A stretch of DNA of 64,000 bases from Candidatus Thiodiazotropha sp. CDECU1 (lineage in GTDB: Bacteria > Pseudomonadota > Gammaproteobacteria > Chromatiales > Chromatiaceae). Below are positions 23,757-62,999 of the stretch, one piece after another. The stretch spans positions 4,092,001 through 4,156,000 of the forward strand of contig NZ_OY734020.1 of assembly GCF_963455295.1 (NCBI RefSeq), written 5' to 3'. Both the position numbers and the translations under genes were made by a program. Each line of letters begins with the position of its first letter. Position 1 is the first letter of the stretch. The notes below the pieces were generated by a model. That model saw nothing but the letters and a program-made list of their open reading frames with translations, ran no database searches and was not told the DNA's origin.

Positions 23757-25490
23757 TCAATCGAAGAGGGCGTCGAAGTGCCCGCTTTCGCCACTCGCCT
23801 CAAGCTGGCTGAAGAATTCAGCAGTGCGTTGTTGCAGCATAGCGAGTGACGACTGCCTCACCAGCTCCCTGGCTTCGAGCAGGGCACTGGGTTGCATACT
23901 CAACTCACGCAGCCCCATTCCGATCAGCAGTCGGGCATAGCGTGGTTCACCCGCCATCTCACCACACATACTGATCGGAATGCCCGCGCTATTGGCGGCG
24001 TCGATAGTGTGCTGAATCAGAAACAGCACCGAAGGGTGGAGTGGATCGAACAGGAAATTCACCTCTTCATCCATACGATCCACAGCCAGGGTATATTGAA
24101 TCAGATCATTGGTACCGATTGAGAGAAAGTCCAGGTGACGGGCAAAACTCTCTGCCGCCAAGGCCGCCGCCGGCACTTCGATCATACCCCCTATCGGGAT
24201 CTGGGTATCGAAAGGCAGGCCGGCACTGCGTAGATCCTGCTTGGTCCTGTCAATCATCTGCAACGCCTGTTTCAGCTCCTTGAGCCCTGACAACATGGGC
24301 AGCATCAATCTCACCGGCCCCTCGGCGGAGGCGCGCAGAATCGCCCTGAGCTGAGGCAGGAACAGCTCCGGCTCCTTCAGACAGAGGCGAATCGCGCGCA
24401 GTCCCAGGGCTGGATTGATAGCCGGCATGCAACCCGAGTCAGATATATTTCCGGTGGTCTTATCCATACCCAAATCGAGTGTGCGGATGGTAAGAGGGAT
24501 ACCTCCCAACCCCCTGACCGCATTGTGATAGGCCTCCAGCTGTTCCTCTTCCGTTGGCAGTGTCGGTCGATTCATGAAGAGAAATTCAGTACGGAAGAGC
24601 CCCACCCCATCCGCCCGGTTATTGAGCGTAGTCTCAATATCATCCGGTAACTCAATATTGGCATGCAGAAAGATCTGCTCACCATCGGTAGTGAATGCGG
24701 GCAGATCCACACGACGTCGCAGATCTTCCTCACGCAGACGTCTGTTCTCGATGCGTTGGCGATAATAGGCAAGGATTCGCTCCGTGGGATCGGCAAGCAC
24801 GACTCCCTGAGCCCCATCCACCACCAGTTGTTCCCCCTGGCGAAACAGAGAAGTTGCCTGATGAATACCGACAACCGCAGGGATACCCAGACTACGTGCG
24901 AGAATCGCAGTGTGAGAGAGTGGTCCGCCATATTCGGTAACGAAAGCGACCACACCCTGATTCTTCATCATGATGGTTTCGGCGGGGGTCAGGTCCTTGG
25001 CCACCACAACCCGGCCATTCAGGTCACCCTGTTGTTGCGGCTTTCCACCCGCAAGCACAAACTGCACCTGACCCACCACATGGTCGACATCGTCCTTGCG
25101 GGTTCGCAGGTAGGGATCATCCATTTCGTCAAACACCCTGACCAACTCATCCCTGCGCACCTGCAGTGCCCACTCGGCACTATACAGGTTCTCCCTGATG
25201 AGATTGATCGTCGCCTGACTGATGGCATAGTCCTCCAACATCAACAGATGGGTATCAATGAACTCACTGATATCCAAAGCCGTATTGGTCGGTATCTGTT
25301 CGCGCACCAGGCGCAGGTGACTGCTTGTGGTGTGCAAGGCGTCTTCGAAACGATCTATTTCGCTCTGAATCAAATCCTCAGTGATTTCCCGATGGATGAC
25401 CTCCGGGATACCCCGCTGCAGCAGATAGACCTCACCAATCGCCACTTCCCGTGAGGTATTGATCCCTATGCCCTGGCAGGATAGCGTCAC
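23757..25490 (-). CDS. ptsI: Phosphoenolpyruvate-protein phosphotransferase (PTS Enzyme I)
   Basis: 577 residues, canonical EI length without the extra GAF domain of EI-Ntr (PtsP). Transfers phosphate from PEP to HPr. The phospho-histidine is His193 in YGGPLSHTAILARS, and the PEP-binding barrel has GVGLFRTEFLFM, IGTNDLIQYTLAVDR and ISMCGEMAGEP. It overlaps the HPr gene by 4 bp and ends the regulatory PTS cluster. No EIIB/EIIC gene is present in the cluster. Confidence 0.96.
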   Translation of the reverse strand: MTLSCQGIGINTSREVAIGEVYLLQRGIPEVIHREITEDLIQSEIDRFEDALHTTSSHLRLVREQIPTNTALDISEFIDTHLLMLEDYAISQATINLIRENLYSAEWALQVRRDELVRVFDEMDDPYLRTRKDDVDHVVGQVQFVLAGGKPQQQGDLNGRVVVAKDLTPAETIMMKNQGVVAFVTEYGGPLSHTAILARSLGIPAVVGIHQATSLFRQGEQLVVDGAQGVVLADPTERILAYYRQRIENRRLREEDLRRRVDLPAFTTDGEQIFLHANIELPDDIETTLNNRADGVGLFRTEFLFMNRPTLPTEEEQLEAYHNAVRGLGGIPLTIRTLDLGMDKTTGNISDSGCMPAINPALGLRAIRLCLKEPELFLPQLRAILRASAEGPVRLMLPMLSGLKELKQALQMIDRTKQDLRSAGLPFDTQIPIGGMIEVPAAALAAESFARHLDFLSIGTNDLIQYTLAVDRMDEEVNFLFDPLHPSVLFLIQHTIDAANSAGIPISMCGEMAGEPRYARLLIGMGLRELSMQPSALLEARELVRQSSLAMLQQRTAEFFSQLEASGESGHFDALFD

Positions 25491-25756
25491 TGGTCTTCTC
25501 CAAATCGCTCGTTGATCAGAGAGGTCAATGCCTGCATCGCCTCCTGTTCATCACTACCGTCTATTTCAAGTACTATTATGGAGCCCTGGTTCGCTGCCAG
25601 CATCATGACTCCCATAATACTTTTACCATTCACCCTCTGGCCGTTGCGATTCAGAAAGACATTGCTGGAAAAGCTATTGGCGCAACTCACCAATTTAGCC
25701 GCCGCACGGGCATGCAGCCCCAGTTTATTGATGATTTCAATCTCTTTATTCAACAT
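25487..25756 (-). CDS. ptsH: Phosphocarrier protein HPr
   Basis: 89 residues. Carries both regulatory sites: His15 in KLGLHARAAAKLV (phosphorylated by EI) and Ser46 in VNGKSIMGVMML (target of HPr kinase). The presence of HprK upstream makes Ser46 control plausible. Could equally be named ptsO/NPr; with one HPr in the cluster the distinction is not resolvable here. Confidence 0.95.
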   Translation of the reverse strand: MLNKEIEIINKLGLHARAAAKLVSCANSFSSNVFLNRNGQRVNGKSIMGVMMLAANQGSIIVLEIDGSDEQEAMQALTSLINERFGEDQ

Positions 25757-41919: not shown

Positions 41920-42573
41920 ATGACGATCATAAAACCGCCACCGCAGGAACCTGAGTATCTTCAGCGATTCCTCTCGTTTTGTCACCGCCGACGTTACCCC
42001 AAAAATACCGAGATTATTCATATCGGTGATCCGGCTGATATCCTCTATTACATCACGGAAGGCTCGGTGGCTGTCTACATCGAAGATGAAGACGGTCGGG
42101 AGATTATCCTCACCTATCTCAACAAAGGGCAATTTGTCGGCGAGATGGGCCTTTTCGTCCCTGAACCCAAGCGAAGTGTGATGGTTCGGACGCGTGCTTC
42201 CTGTCAGATAGCGGAGATCAGCTACCAGCGACTGGAACAGCTCTTCAATCACGATCTCAAGGATTATACCAAAGACATCCTGTATGCCGTGGGGGCTCAG
42301 CTCTCTCAACGGCTCAACCAGACCAGCAATAAGGTTGGACACCTGGCCTTTTTCGATGTGACCGGGCGCATTGCCCGCACCCTGCTCGATCTGTGCAAGG
42401 AACCGGATGCCATGACCCATCCCGACGGCATGCAGATTCGCATCACCCGCCAGGAGATCGGGCGTATCGTCGGCTGTTCCCGGGAGATGGCTGGCAGGGT
42501 ATTGAAAAACCTGGAAGAGCAGGGATTGATCAGCGTAAAGGGCAAGACCATCGTAGTCTTCGGCACCCGCTGA
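41920..42573 (+). CDS. crp: cAMP-activated global regulator CRP (Vfr-like)
   Basis: 217 residues. The N-terminal cyclic-nucleotide domain has [27 protein letters not shown] (pieces) and the phosphate-binding cassette VGEMGLF.....RSVMVRT with the Arg-Ser that contacts c[51 protein letters not shown] (pieces) is nearly identical to the E. coli dimer hinge and HTH. Full-length; expected to bind TGTGA-N6-TCACA sites. Confidence 0.96.
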
Positions 42574-54810: not shown

Positions 54811-54837
54811 AAACCGGGTCTTCACGACCCGGTTTTT
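54811..54837. terminator. Bidirectional Rho-independent terminator
   Basis: AAACCGGGTC / GACCCGGTTT perfect stem with a 5-nt loop and T-tract, serving the 66-residue gene; the convergent Rieske gene ends inside the loop. Confidence 0.92.
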
Positions 54838-55199
54838 CTATCCAGGATCACCACAACCTGGCCTGCCTCCAACCTGACTTCTACGGGCTCGAGCGCATCA
54901 CCTGCACAGGGACCGCGTAAACAGTAACCGTCTTCCAGTCTGAACAGGGCACCGTGGGTAGCACACTGAATATAGCTGTTACTGAGATCAAGAAATTGAT
55001 CCGGCTGCCATTCAAGATTGACACCGGTATGGGGACAGCTGTTTTTATACGCCATCAGAAGTTCGCCGCGACGCACCACGAATAGGGCCACACTCCCACC
55101 CTGTGACTCCAGGACGAAACCTCGGCTTCCCGGATCTCCAAGGGTTGAGATATCACACAGCGGATGACGCTCAAGCAATGTCCAGCCCCCGACGTCCAC
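54822..55199 (-). CDS. Rieske [2Fe-2S] domain protein
   Basis: 125 residues from a GTG. Cluster ligands Cys55-x-His57 (CPHTGVNLEW) and Cys79-x2-His82 (CATHGALF) are spaced as in small ferredoxin-like Rieske proteins. No signal or membrane anchor, so a cytoplasmic electron carrier or regulatory domain. It overlaps the PfkB gene by 29 bp, implying coupled translation. Confidence 0.9.
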   Translation of the reverse strand: MDVGGWTLLERHPLCDISTLGDPGSRGFVLESQGGSVALFVVRRGELLMAYKNSCPHTGVNLEWQPDQFLDLSNSYIQCATHGALFRLEDGYCLRGPCAGDALEPVEVRLEAGQVVVILDRKTGS

Positions 55200-56031
55200 A
55201 CTTTTCGCCGGCCAGACGAACCGCTCTGCCTAATACCTCAGCGGGTTCAAGGCCCGCCTGCAAGCCGTCTATCACGCCGGCATTGAAGACATCCCCCGCC
55301 CCCAGGGTATCGACCACCCGCCCCGGCTGATATGCCGGCATGTGCAGGGTATTTCCATCAACCGTCTGCAGCCAGGCACCATCCTCGCCCCAGGTTGCAA
55401 ACAGCATGACCGAACCCGGGCTTGTACCTATCGCTTCAAACAGATCCAGCGCATTCTCATAGCCATGGGAGGAGGCATAGGCCTTGGCGATAATTACAAC
55501 ATCTGCCAGCGGTATGAGCCGCTCGATGTCTGTCCTGGGTTTTTCGATCTCCAGGGAGATGGTCGCGGATGGTGCTGCAAGTCTGGCATGTCTGAGCATC
55601 GGCTCATACACAGCCGCCTCTCTCCCTTCAAAATGGATCCAAGCGTAGTTCGCAAGATCGATCTGTTCAAAGGCCTCGATCCCGTACTCCGGAAGATCCC
55701 GGTAATGAACGATGGTTCGCGAACCTGTGGCCAGACTGGAGAGGATATAAGAGGTCGGTGTGAAACCTTCAGGCTGAATCCTTGCCCATTGGGTATCAAC
55801 ACCCTGCTGTTGCAAGTCACGCAGGATCAATCGACTCGACTTATCATCGCCCAGCACGCCTGCCCAGCTGCATTGGTGACCCAGTTGACTCAAAACCACC
55901 AGGGTATTGGTGGCATTGCCACCACGGCACTCCTGATGGGAAGTGGCGCGCAGCTCATCATCCTCATTGGGATAGACTGGAACACTGTTGATGATATCAA
56001 GGGTCGCGCCGCCAACCGCAAGCACCTGCAT
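55171..56031 (-). CDS. PfkB family sugar kinase
   Basis: 286 residues. MQVLAVGGATLDIINSVPVYP, the GGNATNTLVVLSQLG sugar-binding motif and the DTLGAGDVFNAGVIDGL catalytic/anion-hole motif with its Asp base are clear. Similarity to ketohexokinase-like PfkB members is suggested by sequence feel only; the sugar is unknown. It lies 31 bp after the giant coiled-coil gene and overlaps the Rieske gene. Confidence 0.92.
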   Translation of the reverse strand: MQVLAVGGATLDIINSVPVYPNEDDELRATSHQECRGGNATNTLVVLSQLGHQCSWAGVLGDDKSSRLILRDLQQQGVDTQWARIQPEGFTPTSYILSSLATGSRTIVHYRDLPEYGIEAFEQIDLANYAWIHFEGREAAVYEPMLRHARLAAPSATISLEIEKPRTDIERLIPLADVVIIAKAYASSHGYENALDLFEAIGTSPGSVMLFATWGEDGAWLQTVDGNTLHMPAYQPGRVVDTLGAGDVFNAGVIDGLQAGLEPAEVLGRAVRLAGEKCGRRGLDIA

Positions 56032-56062: not shown

Positions 56063-59000
56063 TTATTTCCTGCGAAACAGACGCCCCAGGGATGTGCGTT
56101 TCGAGTCTGGACCTGTACTGCTCTTTTCTGTAGATGACGGCCGGGGCGATTCGTTGCGCATGATGGAATCATCTGCCAGATGGCTGTTGTCATACTGCTC
56201 TGAAGACAACTCCAAACCACCGGCCTTTCTGAGTAACAGTTCCAGCTTACGTTTTAACTGATCCACCTCTTTGTCACGGTCCTCGATGGCATCTTCCAAT
56301 GAGCGGCACTGACTTTGCGACATCTTCAGCAGGTGATCTTTCTCGTTAATGGACTGTTGTAGTGAGACCTTCTCCTGGCGGCTGGCCTGGAGTGCCGCCA
56401 CTTCATCAACATCGCGATTTTCTGATGTACCGAGACGGGACTTCGCAGCATGTAATTCACTACGCATATGCTCCAGATCCGCTGCTGCCTGACGACGCAC
56501 CATATCCAGCTCTGTGCGTAGCGCATTCACCTGTTCGTCTACACCGAAAGACTGTACATCCTGGATCTGCTCCACATAGGTCTCGATAACGCTACGCAGT
56601 TCGCTCACTTCACGGCGCATCTTGCTCGCTTCAGCCTTGGCGCCATCACGTTCCCGCTCATACCTCTCGGCCTTGTGACGCAACTCCTCCATCTGACCCA
56701 GCAGATCATCCGCCAGACTGGAATCGGATACCTGCTCTCGCATGCCACTCATTTCAGAGTGTAAATGGTCATTCTCATTGACCATATCTGTATATTGATT
56801 ACGCATCTCCGTAAGCTGCCGGGTCAGGCCCTCCTTCTCCTTGGTGAGAACTTCGAGATCCTCTCCCAGCATCTCAATCGCCGTCTCCTGAACATCACGC
56901 TCCCGTCGCAAGACATCCGCCTGGCGCGCCATTTTCTCCGATTTCTCACGCTTCTTCTTCTCGGCTTCCAATTCCAACCGGAGTGCATGCACTTCGTTTT
57001 CCACATCGTCACTAAGCTGGCTCTCCATCTCCATCTGGACTTCACGCAGGCCCTCCACCTCGCGTTTAAGCGTCTTGATCGTCGCTTCCGCCTTGCGCAG
57101 CGCGTCTCTACTCTCTTTCACTTCGCGCTTGTCGACCATCCGCTCCGCCCCTTCGACCGAAGCCGCCAGGGCGATATGCAACTCATCCATTTCAGCCTGC
57201 TGCTGCCCGATGGTCTGCTTCAACTCCTGCTCGCGCTGCCGGTAACTCTCGGTCTCTTCCCGGGCTTCTCCTTGGAACTGTTCCAGTGCCTGCTGACTCT
57301 CCTGTAACTGCTGCTGCAGCGTCTCAAGATCCTGCTCTTGTTGTACAACAGTTTGAGAGAGCGTCTTCTCCTGCTCTTCATGTAGCTCGCTACGCTCATT
57401 CAATCCCAGTAGTTCTTGCCGCTGTTGCTCCAGCTCACTGTTGAGATCGAGGAGCTGTTGTTCCAGGGATCTCTTTGTCTCCAGCAACGCCTTGTGTTCC
57501 GTATCCAGCTCGGCATAGGATGCCGCAACAGACTCGGCTGACGCCTGCTCAGCCGTCAACTCCTGTTGCAGTTTTTCAACTCTTTGTTTCTCCTCTGCCA
57601 AAGTCGCTTCAGTGCCTTCCCGGTATTGCTGCAGTTCAGCCTGAACCTCATTGAGCTGCTGCTCCAAGCCACTCTTCTCTGCAGTCAATTGCTCTTGGTT
57701 GGTCTCCATCTCCGCGCAAACCTGGTCCATTGACTGCAGGGATTGCTGCATCTCAGCCTGGGCCTCATTCAGCTGCTGTTCCAATCCACTCTTCTCTGCA
57801 GCCAGTTGTTGTTGCTTGGCCTCCATCTCTGACCAAGCCTGGTCCATTGACTGCAGGGATTCCTTGGTCTCCTCCAGTGCTTGTCCCAACTGCTCTGCCT
57901 GCTGAGTCTTTTCATTGATCTGCGCTTCAGCGACCTGTATACGCTCCTGCAACTCAAGCTGCTGTTGATCCTGCTGTTGCTGCAACTCGCTCTGCGCCTG
58001 CTCGGCACCCTGCAGGGATTCTTGCAATGCGGTCAGTTGCCGCTCAAGGGATTGTTGCAGCTGTTTCTTTTCTTCCAACTCGACACTGCTCTGATTCACC
58101 GACTGTTCAGCGGTCTCCAGAGATTTTTTGAGGAATTGAGCGGTCTGATGCTCCTGCTCCAGCAGCGCCTCGAACTCAACCCGCTTTTCTTTTTGCTGCT
58201 TGGCTTCCGCCTCTGCCTGCTGTAATTGATCTTTAAGTGTTAACAGTGCCTCATGGGAACGGGATGTGATCTCATCCTCATGTAGCTGCAATGCATCCAA
58301 CTCCTGCTGCAACTGCTGTTCCCTCTCCTCGGCTTGCTGATGTGCCTGTTCGAATGCTTCCAGTTTCTGCTCTAGCTCGGATACCTCACCCGCATGACTC
58401 CCTGCCTGTTCATCAAGGGAATCCTGCAGCTGCTTGGCCCTGGCTTCCGACTTCTCAAGATCTTGCTCGCGACTCGTCAGCAGCTCGTCATTCTGATGCT
58501 TCTCCTGTCTGAGCTGATCCAAGGCGCTTCTGGCCTCTTCAAGATCACCACGCAGGGACTCCATGGCGTTGGCATACTGGGCATCCGCATCGTTGCCTGC
58601 CTGGCGTACCGCTTCGAGTTCCTTCTCCAGACCGGTTCTGCGGTCATCCAACGCCTGCAGTTCCTGCTGCAGGGAGATGACCTGCGCATGTTCCTCGCCA
58701 TAGCGCTGTTGCAGTTCATCATGCTCGCTCTGAAGGGTGCCCTGGGCCGACTCGGCAGCTTCCAGTTGCTGTTTCAGCTCCTGTTGAGTCTGCAACAGAC
58801 CGCTGACTTGACTTTCCGCCTGTTGTGCAGATTGCTCTACTCGCTGGTTGGATTCCTGCAGCTGATCCTGCAGTTCGGAAACGACCTGCTGATGTTCGGC
58901 CTGCTGATGCTCCAACTCCGATTGAAGCTGAGACAATTCATGCCGGGTCGACTCCAGTCTCTGTTCATGCTCAGACGCCTGCTGCTTGCGTTGCGCCTGT

Positions 59001-61246
59001 TGCTGTTCCAGATCCGCTTGGGTCTTAGACAGCTCCTGCTGGGCAGACTCAAGCTTATGCTCAAGCTCGGCTGCCTCTGCAGTCAAATCCTGCTGGGTCT
59101 GTTGCAGCGATTCATTCAACTGATCACGCTGTTCCGCGATTGCCTGCAACTCGTCTGACTGCTGCTGATGTTCGGCTTGTTGCTGTTCCAGCGCCGACCG
59201 GGCCTCAGACAGTTCGTACTGGGTGGATTCCAGTTTCTGCTCAAGCTCTGCTGACTCTGCAGTCATGTTCTGGTGAGTCTGTTGCAGCGATTCGGCCAAC
59301 CGATCGCGCTCTTGCGTGATCGTCTGTAACTCGTCTGACTGCTGCTGATGCTCGGTTCGATGCTGCTCCAATTCAGACTGGACCTGAGACAGCTCCTGCT
59401 GGGTCGACTCCAGTCTCTGTCCAAGCTCAGCCGCCTCGGCGGTCATATTCTGCTGCGTCTGCTGCAGCGATTCGGCCAACTGATCACGCTCATCCGTAAT
59501 CGTCTTTAATTCGTCTGCCTGCTGTTGGCGTTGAGTCTCCGTCTCCTGGAGATGCTGTTGCAGTTCATCCCGCTCCTTGAGGACGGATTCATGCTCATGG
59601 GTCGATTGAGCATGAAAGGTTTCTGCCTCTTGTTGGAGTTGGGAAATCTCGCTCTGTAATACCTCAATCTCTGCGTTGAGTTGTCTCTCGTTTCCTTCTT
59701 GACTGGATTGCAGCTGCTTGAGTTGTTCACGCAACAAATTGCTCTGGTGGGATGCTTGATCATGACTCTTCCTGGCCCCGTTCAGATCGGCCCGGGTCGT
59801 ATCAAGTGCGTGTTCCAACTCATCGATCCTTTCCTGCAGCACCTGCCTTTCAGCCTCCAGACCCTCCCCCTCCGCAAGCCTGGATTCCGCCATCGCGAGG
59901 GCCTTGCGCAAGGAGTCGACCTCCTGCTCCAGGGCATGCGCGTTTTTTGCACCCTCCTCGCCTGTTTGCATACGATTCTTGGCCACCGCCAGGGCCTGGC
60001 GCAGGAGTTTGATTTCGGTATGCCGCTGTTCCAACTCCTGTTCGAATTGACGGTGGGCTTCCGCCAACTCCTTCTGCAGACGATCTACCACCGATTGAGG
60101 GACACCGGTTCCCTCGGTGGCGTCAGCGGCTTCATCCGATTCACGGTTGAAATCGATGACATTGTTGCTGCCTGCCGGATCCCCTTGTTTATTGAAGCCC
60201 GCGATCTCAGCGATCTGATCCCAGTTGCTTTCCACAACGAAGACCTCTGCGCCGCGCTCGGTCAACAGATATGCGGCTGTGGCGGATTGACCGACCTCCT
60301 CACCATACACAACATAGGCCCGATCGAGGGTAAGGCTGGAGGCTTGAAAGCGTAAGGAGAAAAATGGCAGGTTGATCGCACCGGGAAGATGCCCCTCCTC
60401 ATACTCCTCCGGGGTACGCACATCCAGCCAAAGCGCCCCCTTTTCGATCATTGCGGCCGCCTCCTTGAAATCGATCGATCTGGAGAGGGGCTGTTTGACC
60501 AACTCAATGAAATCATTCTTGTTTAATCGTACCAGTACGCCATCTGTCGTCATGGTGACCGAGCTGCCACGGGGTTTGTTGGAGATCAGGGCCTCCTCGC
60601 CAAATCCTTTGCCGGCACGCAATATAGCCAGCTCTACCGGGGCATGCCCGGCCTCAGGGGTGCGCGAGACGTTACATTCTCCCTTACTGATGAGATAGAA
60701 GTAGTCTCCCTCTTCCCCCTGGGTGATGATTTCAGCCCCTGCTTTGACCTTGATCTCCTCCATCCGCATCATGACACGCTGCAGATTAGCCGGGGGTATC
60801 TGTTGAAATATGGGTGACTGCAGCAGCAGGGTCATCCAATCGTCGCTGCTCGGCTGCTCGATGTCCTTCACTTCATAGCTCGCACTGTGGCTTCGTGCCA
60901 GCATATCGCTGAGTAAACGGCTGTCGACACGGACGAAACTGACGTTGGTTCTCGCCTGTGCGGAGTGCTTTCTTGGCAGCTGGTGAGCCAGGGCGAAACG
61001 CGCTGTAGGCGTTCCACTGCTGATCAGGTCCATCTCCTTCTGCCCGGACAGCAGGGCCACTGTTCCGGAGAGCAGATAGACATTCTGGTGGTCTGTATCC
61101 CCTTCGCGAAAGAGGTAATCACCCTTTTTGGCCTTCTCAATCGCAATCTGGCTCAATAGATGTCCGAGCTGCTCTTCTGAAAGCGTGTTCAGAGGCACCA
61201 GATTCTTGAGTAGGACGTCATCGTTTTTACTATCGGGCACGGCCAT
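56063..61246 (-). CDS. Giant protein: two cNMP-binding domains, rhodanese fold, about 1,300-residue coiled coil
   Basis: 1,727 residues. Domain 1 (about 15-125) is a divergent cyclic-nucleotide-binding fold (KGDYLFREGDTDHQNVYLLSG). Domain 2 (about 145-252) is a better one, with the phosphate-binding cassette FGEEALISNKPRGSSV. A rhodanese domain (about 258-345) has WLDVRTPEEYEEGHLPGAIN, but the loop that should hold the catalytic Cys reads VVYGEEVGQSATAA, so sulfurtransfer is unlikely. From about residue 385 to 1,690 the protein is almost unbroken Gln/Glu-rich heptad coiled coil with internal 60- and 39-residue repeats. It ends in a short basic tail (GRLFRRK). No signal peptide or membrane helix: cytoplasmic. 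The start follows AGAAT/AATGGCC without a strong ribosome site. It reads like a ligand-sensing scaffold; the function is unknown. Confidence 0.85.
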   Translation of the reverse strand: MAVPDSKNDDVLLKNLVPLNTLSEEQLGHLLSQIAIEKAKKGDYLFREGDTDHQNVYLLSGTVALLSGQKEMDLISSGTPTARFALAHQLPRKHSAQARTNVSFVRVDSRLLSDMLARSHSASYEVKDIEQPSSDDWMTLLLQSPIFQQIPPANLQRVMMRMEEIKVKAGAEIITQGEEGDYFYLISKGECNVSRTPEAGHAPVELAILRAGKGFGEEALISNKPRGSSVTMTTDGVLVRLNKNDFIELVKQPLSRSIDFKEAAAMIEKGALWLDVRTPEEYEEGHLPGAINLPFFSLRFQASSLTLDRAYVVYGEEVGQSATAAYLLTERGAEVFVVESNWDQIAEIAGFNKQGDPAGSNNVIDFNRESDEAADATEGTGVPQSVVDRLQKELAEAHRQFEQELEQRHTEIKLLRQALAVAKNRMQTGEEGAKNAHALEQEVDSLRKALAMAESRLAEGEGLEAERQVLQERIDELEHALDTTRADLNGARKSHDQASHQSNLLREQLKQLQSSQEGNERQLNAEIEVLQSEISQLQQEAETFHAQSTHEHESVLKERDELQQHLQETETQRQQQADELKTITDERDQLAESLQQTQQNMTAEAAELGQRLESTQQELSQVQSELEQHRTEHQQQSDELQTITQERDRLAESLQQTHQNMTAESAELEQKLESTQYELSEARSALEQQQAEHQQQSDELQAIAEQRDQLNESLQQTQQDLTAEAAELEHKLESAQQELSKTQADLEQQQAQRKQQASEHEQRLESTRHELSQLQSELEHQQAEHQQVVSELQDQLQESNQRVEQSAQQAESQVSGLLQTQQELKQQLEAAESAQGTLQSEHDELQQRYGEEHAQVISLQQELQALDDRRTGLEKELEAVRQAGNDADAQYANAMESLRGDLEEARSALDQLRQEKHQNDELLTSREQDLEKSEARAKQLQDSLDEQAGSHAGEVSELEQKLEAFEQAHQQAEEREQQLQQELDALQLHEDEITSRSHEALLTLKDQLQQAEAEAKQQKEKRVEFEALLEQEHQTAQFLKKSLETAEQSVNQSSVELEEKKQLQQSLERQLTALQESLQGAEQAQSELQQQQDQQQLELQERIQVAEAQINEKTQQAEQLGQALEETKESLQSMDQAWSEMEAKQQQLAAEKSGLEQQLNEAQAEMQQSLQSMDQVCAEMETNQEQLTAEKSGLEQQLNEVQAELQQYREGTEATLAEEKQRVEKLQQELTAEQASAESVAASYAELDTEHKALLETKRSLEQQLLDLNSELEQQRQELLGLNERSELHEEQEKTLSQTVVQQEQDLETLQQQLQESQQALEQFQGEAREETESYRQREQELKQTIGQQQAEMDELHIALAASVEGAERMVDKREVKESRDALRKAEATIKTLKREVEGLREVQMEMESQLSDDVENEVHALRLELEAEKKKREKSEKMARQADVLRRERDVQETAIEMLGEDLEVLTKEKEGLTRQLTEMRNQYTDMVNENDHLHSEMSGMREQVSDSSLADDLLGQMEELRHKAERYERERDGAKAEASKMRREVSELRSVIETYVEQIQDVQSFGVDEQVNALRTELDMVRRQAAADLEHMRSELHAAKSRLGTSENRDVDEVAALQASRQEKVSLQQSINEKDHLLKMSQSQCRSLEDAIEDRDKEVDQLKRKLELLLRKAGGLELSSEQYDNSHLADDSIMRNESPRPSSTEKSSTGPDSKRTSLGRLFRRK
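57730..57963 (-). repeat. Two 117-bp repeats inside the coiled-coil gene
   Basis: Encodes two consecutive 39-residue units beginning LQSMDQ..., with EKSGLEQQLNE.QAE in each. The DNA is still highly similar, so the duplication is recent. Confidence 0.75.
58960..59515 (-). repeat. About three 180-bp repeats inside the coiled-coil gene
   Basis: Encodes 60-residue units of pattern ERDQLAESLQQTQQNMTAEAAEL... with QQQSDELQ near each end; spacing in DNA is 180 bp. The period is a near multiple of the heptad, which keeps the coiled coil in register only approximately. Confidence 0.75.
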
Positions 61247-61460: not shown

Positions 61461-62999
61461 GTGAAACAGTTTAAGGGCATTATTGCCGCTGGACATTACG
61501 AAACCGTTAAGGCGGGATGCGAGATACTGGGAGAGGGCGGGAACGCCTTCGACGCAGTAGTGGCCTCGATGCTGACCGCCTGCGTGGCCGAGCCGGTACT
61601 CGCATCACTCGGCGGAGGGGGATTTCTCACCGCCAGGCCCGCCCAATCTGACCCGCTGGTCTACGATTTCTTTGCCCAAACCCCGCACCGGAAGCTGACC
61701 GAGGGCGAACTTGGCTTCTATCCGATCGAGGCTGATTTCGGCACCGCCAGCCAAACCTTCCATATTGGCATGGGCTCCATAGCCACGCCCGGGTTCATCA
61801 AGGGCCTGTACACCATTCATGACAATCACTGCCGGCTACCCCTGAGAACCCTGTTTCAACCGGCGATCGAACTGGCGACCAAGGGTGTATCCATCAATCC
61901 GTTTCAGCACCTGATATCCACCATCGTCGCCCCAATTCTGCGTGCGACCCCGGAGGCCCTGCAGATCAATGCCTCGCCAGAAAGCCCTGATCGCCTGATC
62001 TCTGAGGGTGAACGCCATCGATTACCCGCCTTCGCGGATTTCCTGAAGATTCTACAACATGAAGGGGAGAGGTTATTCTACGAGGGTGAGGCAGGCAGAC
62101 AATTGGTCAATGACTGTCGAGATAGAGGCGGCCATCTGCAGATGGATGATCTGCTCGGTTATGCGCTTCTCCGGCGTTCACCTCTGCGATACAGATACCA
62201 CGGCGCACAAATTTTAACCAACCCATTACCTTCCCTGGGTGGCACACTGATCGCCTTTTCCCTGGGTCAACTGGCCTCCCACACCATTGACCCAAACAGT
62301 GCCGGTGAAGAGGATCATATCAGGAGACTTGCGCAAACCATGCAGATAACGCAGATAGCAAGAATGGATCACCATTCGAGCATGGAGCGTCTACTCGATC
62401 CAGATATCAGCGAGCAGTTTAAAAAACGTCTGCGCCAGGGAGGCTTGTCCACCCGCGGCACCACCCAGATCAGCATCGCAGACAGGGATGGAAATCTTGC
62501 CAGCATGACCCTCTCCAACGGTGAGGGCAGCGGCTATGTGATACCGGGCACAGGGATTATGATGAACAATATGTTAGGCGAGGAGGATCTGAACCCAAAA
62601 GGTTTCCATCAATGGCCGCTCAACCAACGTCTTGCCTCGATGATGGCGCCGACCCTGATCCTGACCGACGACGGCCGCTCGATCGTATTGGGTTCCGGGG
62701 GATCCAACCGGATTCGCAGCGCGATATTGCAGGTCATCATCAACCTGCTCGATTTTGGCATGCCCCTCGAACAGGCCGTTTCCTTCCCCCGCATCCACTA
62801 CGAAAGCGAACTCTTGAGTATGGAACCGGGGATCGATGCTGCAATCGGCGACATATTGAAGAGTGAATTCCCGAAGCAACAGCATTGGCAGAGCAAAAAT
62901 CTGTTCTTCGGTGGAACCCACTGTGTCCTGCTGGATGATAAAGGAAATCACATAGGCATTGGCGATGAACGCCGTGGCGGCGTCAGCCTGTCCGTATAA
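61461..62999 (+). CDS. Gamma-glutamyltranspeptidase-family protein (apparently cytoplasmic)
   Basis: 512 residues. Ntn-hydrolase fold: N-terminal GGNAFDAVVASMLTACVAEP, SLGGGGFLTARP, and the predicted autocleavage point before Thr334 in STRGTTQISIADRDGN, followed by SNGEGSGYVIPGTGIMMNNMLGE and RLASMMAPTLIL. There is no signal peptide, unlike periplasmic GGTs; the second residue of the TTH motif is followed by Gln instead of His. Probably a hydrolase/transferase of gamma-glutamyl or related amides. It stands alone, divergent from the giant coiled-coil gene. Confidence 0.88.
   Translation: MKQFKGIIAAGHYETVKAGCEILGEGGNAFDAVVASMLTACVAEPVLASLGGGGFLTARPAQSDPLVYDFFAQTPHRKLTEGELGFYPIEADFGTASQTFHIGMGSIATPGFIKGLYTIHDNHCRLPLRTLFQPAIELATKGVSINPFQHLISTIVAPILRATPEALQINASPESPDRLISEGERHRLPAFADFLKILQHEGERLFYEGEAGRQLVNDCRDRGGHLQMDDLLGYALLRRSPLRYRYHGAQILTNPLPSLGGTLIAFSLGQLASHTIDPNSAGEEDHIRRLAQTMQITQIARMDHHSSMERLLDPDISEQFKKRLRQGGLSTRGTTQISIADRDGNLASMTLSNGEGSGYVIPGTGIMMNNMLGEEDLNPKGFHQWPLNQRLASMMAPTLILTDDGRSIVLGSGGSNRIRSAILQVIINLLDFGMPLEQAVSFPRIHYESELLSMEPGIDAAIGDILKSEFPKQQHWQSKNLFFGGTHCVLLDDKGNHIGIGDERRGGVSLSV

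Follow-up and report, generated by a model that had tools for sequence, protein, structure and literature searches.

What could a single chain of 1,727 residues, in which two cyclic-nucleotide-binding (CNB) domains and a rhodanese domain precede a coiled coil of about 1,300 residues, be doing in its cell? The gene lies in the window, the whole stretch of 64,000 nucleotides analysed here, which covers positions 4,092,001-4,156,000 of the 4.46-Mb single-contig genome of a Candidatus Thiodiazotropha, presumably a symbiont of lucinid clams. As a tentative answer, to which we give somewhat less than an even chance, we propose that the protein is a cytoplasmic cyclic-nucleotide-responsive rod scaffold organising or regulating a ketohexokinase-Rieske module; its ligand, assembly and partner binding are inferred. 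The features of the locus are collected in Table 1.

Table 1. Features of the locus, in coordinates of the window; residues are those of the 1,727-residue protein.
Feature	Position	Strand	Basis or remark
Putative scaffold gene, 1,727 aa	56063..61246	-	Open translation, no stop
CNB-1, degenerate	60890..61231 (residues about 6-119)	-	Pfam, 83-row alignment, AlphaFold2
CNB-2, canonical fold	60482..60838 (residues 137-255)	-	Pfam, PDB sequence matches, AlphaFold2, Foldseek
CNB-2 phosphate-binding cassette	60563..60604 (residues 215-228)	-	83-row alignment
Rhodanese domain	60200..60478 (residues 257-349)	-	Pfam 52.1 bits, cut-off 22.2, best stretch 261-344; AlphaFold2
Variable coiled-coil spacer	57047..60181 (residues 356-1400)	-	Identity of 17-74% within the genus, by bins of 50 residues; length varies
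180-bp (60-residue) tandem repeat, 2.9 copies, in spacer	58998..59524	-	
117-bp (39-residue) tandem repeat, 2.0 copies, in spacer	57625..57861	-	
Conserved distal coil module	56222..57046 (residues 1401-1675)	-	Genus conservation, profile searches, AlphaFold2
Basic C-terminal tail RTSLGRLFRRK	56066..56098 (residues 1717-1727)	-	Motif conserved in genus
Ketohexokinase-like PfkB kinase	55171..56031	-	31 nt downstream of the putative scaffold gene, same strand
Rieske-type [2Fe-2S] protein	54822..55199	-	29-nt overlap with the end of the kinase gene, taking the first GTG as start
Gamma-glutamyltransferase gene, divergent	61461..62999	+	Neighbour kept in the genus and in some relatives; we do not count it among the parts of the system
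CRP	41920..42573	+	NCBIfam equivalog, 336 bits, cut-off 266; not part of the system

Reading frame and head domains

The earlier note on this DNA, made from the letters alone, had allowed that the coil might be an assembly artefact absent from all relatives. The head was present in all 20 other genomes of the genus and lay in a single frame of at least 1,350 residues in 17 of them; in the other three, the gene ran off a contig end (G009) or was interrupted, with the head in a shorter frame (G012 and G015). Because of these 17 long frames, together with the long forms outside the genus, an assembly artefact was ruled out. The closest named relative, a metagenome-assembled genome of a Ctena orbiculata symbiont, encodes a protein of equal length whose head is 99% identical. 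A plasmid search gave no match. No membrane-like stretch of 19 residues was present in the 1,727-residue protein, in which hydropathy reached at most 0.79.

Over curated cut-offs, Pfam assigned two cNMP_binding stretches and one rhodanese to the head, and no match to the tail. Based on a 43-row alignment, AlphaFold2 modeled the head as a pair of CNB folds with a rhodanese fold (pLDDT 80.6, pTM 0.62). The domain composition read in the earlier note stood by Pfam, by AlphaFold2 and by the period of the coil, with the corrections that CNB-1 is degenerate and that the rhodanese lacks its Cys.

The two CNB domains are unequal. In CNB-1, the phosphate-binding cassette was absent from the aligned stretch (residues 72-125), and in the cassette of CNB-2, Gly216 and Glu217 were present in every one of 83 rows and Arg226 in 82, which speaks for a cyclic-nucleotide-responsive scaffold. 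At conserved positions of CNB-1, Pro91 was found in all 83 rows and Arg92 in 77, with His in 6. The rows behind these counts are not independent because some genomes occur twice under different names (e.g. L078 and L135). Position 227 of CNB-2, whose equivalent is Ala or Thr in PKA and PKG, was Gly, Ser, Asn or, once, His in the same alignment, and we counted this against the scaffold. Considering known families, we infer that CNB-2, which has the residues for cyclic-nucleotide binding, could bind such a ligand.

Searched against PDB sequences, the head matched the apicomplexan multi-CNB protein PCR12 first and then PKG and PKA-R, which again speaks for a nucleotide-responsive scaffold. In the Foldseek search, the best matches were the tandem CNBs of PKA-R and PKG, with E-values down to 2e-18. 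Two features of these matches count the other way: the rmsd across both CNBs was ~15-20 Å, so that the domains match and their arrangement differs, and several of the top matches were trypanosome PKA-R structures titled cAMP-independent.

In the rhodanese domain, the catalytic Cys is replaced by Gly315 in 17 of 17 genus rows. Outside the genus, Cys was found in 58 of 66 rows and Ser in 8. Judged by its sequence, the rhodanese is a pseudo-enzyme in Thiodiazotropha.

The coiled-coil rod and its distal end

The heptad coil extends over ~1,295 residues (381-1675). Residues 381-1650 follow a single hydrophobic period of 3.53 residues with a power of 54, against at most 10 in 200 shuffles, and beyond residue 355 prolines occur only at positions 357, 383, 1701, 1703 and 1713. 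Coiled coils rise by 0.1485 nm per residue, and the rod, if continuous, would be ~192 nm long. NCBIfam matches of the tail were to SMC/Rad50-type coil, far under cut-offs.

Compared with 15 other sequences of the genus in bins of 50 residues, identity was 82-98% in the head, 17-74% in the spacer and 78-92% in residues 1401-1650, and protein lengths ranged from 1,349 to 1,754 residues among 16 genus sequences. The spacer contains tandem repeats of whole codons, which can account for this variation in length. As only the ends matter for a tether or scaffold, a head and a distal module that are kept on either side of a drifting spacer present the pattern of a tether or scaffold.

Of the 22 genus genomes, our own included, 20 gave a match to the distal stretch, the exceptions being G009 and G012. 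Outside the genus, the profile of the distal module matched locus L088 upstream of an FGE domain (47.9 bits, with a bias of 44.9) and gave weak partial matches in L059, L092, L053 and L058 (16-22 bits). Since weak matches of up to 24 bits outside the genus were likewise obtained with two control profiles of the mid-rod region, the match in L088 alone is more than suggestive. A PDB search with the distal-module profile gave no match at E 0.001. In the AlphaFold2 model of the last 348 residues (pLDDT 78.7), four long helices are followed by a disordered linker and one short terminal helix; with a pTM of 0.24 this model carries no tertiary information. At the very end, 16 of the 17 genus loci of full length keep the tail LGRLFR[RK]K; L046 is the exception, and some of the 17 are nearly identical to one another. 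A membrane anchor is plausible from the composition of this basic tail, though its hydrophobic moment was no better than that of shuffled sequences, 37% of 2,000 of which reached the same moment.

These properties raise another explanation, in which the protein would act as a scaffold of the cytoskeleton or of cell polarity: the coil would assemble into filaments, or its distal end would position something at a pole or at the membrane, cyclic nucleotide would control assembly, and the kinase and the Rieske protein would be bystanders. The length and heptad regularity of the rod, the missing catalytic Cys and the conservation of distal module and basic tail in the genus would all suit it, and the divergent head-coil gene pairs of L139-L141, described below, suggest hetero-oligomers; the tail amphipathicity within the shuffle range, the lack of a solved-structure match for the distal module at E 0.001 and the recurrence of metabolic neighbours speak against it. 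We regard this explanation as possible but unlikely.

Spread of the family and its FGE domain

The protein belongs to a widespread family. At E <= 1e-30, the head was found in 125 of 274 evenly drawn Gammaproteobacteria genomes, with an identity outside the genus of about 35-51%. Among the 150 head places listed, frames of at least 1,000 residues were found at 35 (35 genomes, our own included), frames of 450-999 residues at 35 (28 genomes) and frames below 450 residues at 80 (73 genomes). The earlier note took the giant coil form to be possibly undescribed. The matches listed in a full-text literature search held no description of the architecture, though the rhodanese-superfamily literature might cover cNMP-rhodanese fusions, and the parts of PMC12419801 and PMC8346489 that were consulted do not describe the family. 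As long forms occur across Gammaproteobacteria, the architecture is not peculiar to this cell.

Most long forms examined outside the genus end in an FGE/SUMF1-like domain (FGE-sulfatase, PF03781). It is fused to the head-bearing gene in nine loci (L052, L054, L055, L072, L086 and L088-L091); in five others (L053 and L056-L059) it is encoded further downstream, either in a frame of its own or beyond a stop. Among 17 further single-gene long forms, chosen for length, 14 have the domain, two (L125 and L135) are without it and one (L122) runs off a contig end. Neither the window protein nor any of 19 genus loci has it; of these loci, L049 and L081 end before the gene does. The best NCBIfam match of the domain was PvdO, far under the cut-off, in the two proteins tested, and five aligned FGE domains showed no Cys pair of the kind that marks true formylglycine-generating enzymes. 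A role as target of a diversity-generating retroelement was rejected, as the last 500 nt had no near-repeat in the DNA around each gene at 14 of 14 loci.

Elsewhere in our genome, FGE domains occur in three open frames of 1,000, 424 and 411 residues, the first of which is not linked to the putative scaffold gene. A 999-residue protein ending in FGE (L113:1976-4975; G000:C1 about 856975-859974) looks TIR- and NTPase-like in sequence and adjoins a protein that looks patatin-like; it is perhaps part of a conflict system. In L059:9989-13974 and L057:9989-13947, a second frame that encodes coil and FGE comes after a head-coil gene, and its start resembles the end of the first frame; the arrangement was followed as a whole in L059 and by frame and FGE match in L057. 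Divergent pairs of head-coil genes, of about 800-850 and 900-1,290 residues, are present in L139, L140 and L141. The paired proteins have a similar C-terminal stretch around RIKxRAxxAxxxA and are perhaps hetero-oligomeric partners.

In a head tree of 59 rows, built by a quick method with SH-aLRT supports only and a midpoint root, and with some 'other coil' rows cut by contig ends, the genus formed one clade (100) and the short proteins another (99), and FGE-bearing forms fell in both halves. With a root that is not fixed and several long branches, the tree fits an ancestral long form with FGE; Thiodiazotropha would then have lost FGE, and the short clade its entire tail.

The kinase and Rieske neighbours

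Residues 2-284 of the kinase encoded directly downstream align with ketohexokinase chains, which are presumably mammalian (best match 2.1e-61, 211 bits; next other chain 65.7 bits), and the two have the stretches GGNA[ST]N and VDTLGAGD in common. The neighbour thus appears ketohexokinase-like, and phosphorylation of fructose at C1 is predicted. At other loci, the gap between long form and kinase is 29, 31, 33, 17, 88, 121 and 210 nt (L088, L142, L149, L155, L154, L150 and L145, respectively). Among genus loci with enough flank, the kinase was found in 16 of 16 and the Rieske protein in 14 of 16, with no Rieske match in L045 and L047.

Within 7 kb of the listed long forms (at least 1,000 residues), our own included, the kinase was found in 10 of 35 genomes, the Rieske protein in 14 and either in 16, always downstream. 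Near the short forms this was the case at 2 of 80 places, including G124, where the place is a second head gene belonging to the same cluster. The difference between 16 of 35 and 2 of 80, which we counted in favour of our proposal, gives a Fisher p of 2.8e-8; kinship was not corrected for, and the size classes and the 7-kb distance were chosen after seeing the lists. Three observations were counted against a scaffold of this module: only 1 of 35 places with frames of 450-999 residues has either neighbour, neither lies within 7 kb in 19 of the 35 listed long-form genomes, and the arrangement varies, with the Rieske gene alone in L072, L086 and L151 and before the kinase gene in L157.

The pair also occurs by itself. 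Relatives of the kinase (E <= 1e-25) were found in 76 of 274 genomes and of the Rieske protein (E <= 1e-10) in 105, and in 29 genomes the two are no more than 2 kb apart. In G087, G089, G179, G191 and G302 they share one stop-free open frame, which indicates kinase-Rieske fusions; G225 is arranged likewise but with a stop. Because both are joined in one frame in five genomes, the pair probably acts together. No listed long form lies within 7 kb in 66 of the 76 kinase genomes, so the kinase works without the scaffold, and this too was counted against our proposal. The linkage of the long forms to two enzymes which, in other genomes, are fused together or occur without them suggests an extra layer of control. 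A literature search on the kinase and the Rieske protein together gave an unrelated match only. Between long form and Rieske gene, L157 has a YjbQ-family gene (L157:12464-12871; family tested in this locus), and a gene of equal size takes the same place in L158 (L158:7761-8168).

The Rieske gene, being commoner downstream of listed long forms than the kinase gene (14/35 vs 10/35), also fits a redox or sulfur sensor, in which a Cys-bearing rhodanese would take up persulfide and signal to the Rieske or FGE-like parts, the nucleotide would be secondary, and the sulfur step would have been lost in the genus. The Cys is kept in most rows outside the genus (58/66), and Sedimenticola, which oxidises sulfur, is among the relatives. 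We consider such a sensor rather improbable, since the Cys is gone in all 17 genus rows while the kinase neighbour stays, and 8 more rows have Ser.

Upstream of many long forms, an HU-like gene lies on the opposite strand, together with a retropepsin-like or TerB gene; these genes could be plain synteny. An HU-like protein with a Lys/Ala-rich N-terminal stretch is encoded just past the end of the window (L096:11402-11809). A nucleoid- or chromosome-associated coiled coil, SMC-like in effect and linked to this gene, is highly improbable: many long-form loci from both halves of the tree have the HU-like gene at most about 3.2 kb upstream, and SMC coil matches exist under threshold, but that gene is on the opposite strand, often with other genes in between, Pfam found neither ATPase head nor hinge, and the NCBIfam SMC match, in the coil, reached 86.8 bits against a cut-off of 567.

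Proposed mechanism and known systems

For the cyclic-nucleotide-responsive rod scaffold, a ligand would be at hand. The CRP in the window, complete as the earlier note had it, means that a cAMP receptor exists in the cell, and the genome encodes four class III cyclase-domain proteins besides this true CRP, which we counted in favour. In total, 16 cNMP matches over cut-off lie in 13 open frames of the genome. A CRP site at the promoter of the putative scaffold gene was rejected: with up to 2 mismatches, the window holds 13 matches against a chance expectation of 28.7, none of them in the gap before the gene. A 418-residue protein elsewhere (L112:477-1733; G000:C1 about 24476-25732) combines an N-terminal stretch like the degenerate CNB-1, for which Pfam made no cNMP call, with an HDOD domain. 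A CNB-1-like match in a frame of 366-455 residues recurs in 20 of 20 other genus genomes, the HDOD domain having been tested in the L112 protein only.

In the proposed mechanism, the chain would form a parallel dimer ~190 nm long, and cAMP or cGMP bound at CNB-2 would alter the head in the manner of PKA-R and other tandem-CNB proteins. The pseudo-rhodanese may serve as a docking surface, and the distal coil module may hold a partner at the place where outside the genus an FGE-like domain usually sits. By the level of cyclic nucleotide, the scaffold would gather or gate the kinase-Rieske pair and thus the phosphorylation of ketohexose or a related sugar. The ligand-sensing scaffold of the earlier note survives in part, with a conserved head on a long rod, the CNB-2 residues, CRP and four cyclases on its side, but with unequal CNBs and a pseudo-enzyme for a rhodanese; its suggestion that the rod positions storage granules found no evidence, the recurrent neighbours being the ketohexokinase-like kinase and the Rieske protein. 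The wider claim, that rods of ~150-200 nm with PKA-R-like heads form a widespread, so far undescribed bacterial signalling system through which cAMP or cGMP gathers or gates an animal-type ketohexokinase and a Rieske protein, strikes us as doubtful.

The known bacterial effectors of cAMP and cGMP are mostly CRP-type regulators, channels and acetyltransferases. If our proposal is true, a cyclic nucleotide would steer sugar metabolism post-transcriptionally and spatially, by means of a giant scaffold in the cytoplasm instead of by transcription. As the family spans Gammaproteobacteria, relatives beyond the symbiont could be used for tests.

Compared with known systems, the window protein lacks the split ABC ATPase head and the hinge of SMC proteins, as judged by Pfam. 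Family 2B encapsulins likewise have a cNMP domain on a structural protein and a proposed cNMP-dependent control of enzymes, and rhodaneses are enriched in some Family 2 encapsulin operons (PMC8346489, consulted in part); they differ in their HK97-type shell, built by an unrelated gene, and a word search of the same text found no coil. With PKA-R and PKG, which are among the best sequence matches and are the best fold matches, the protein shares tandem CNBs and the Glu and Arg of the second CNB; it differs in its degenerate CNB-1, its rhodanese and rod, and the arrangement of domains in the model, and a kinase or inhibitor site was not found in it. The short cNMP-cNMP-rhodanese proteins of Gammaproteobacteria (about 350 residues), which form one tree clade, share a head that is about 35-46% identical, but they have no coil, an intact Cys loop in 14 of 14 rows and other neighbours, namely a 3HCDH-ECH enzyme (L085) and putative PilZ, holB, tmk and mltG. 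The cNMP-cNMP-rhodanese-coil-FGE proteins of other Gammaproteobacteria differ in the C-terminal FGE/SUMF1-like domain, absent in the genus, and in a rhodanese Cys that is mostly kept, and they share with the window protein the head, the rod and, in many cases, the kinase and/or Rieske neighbours.
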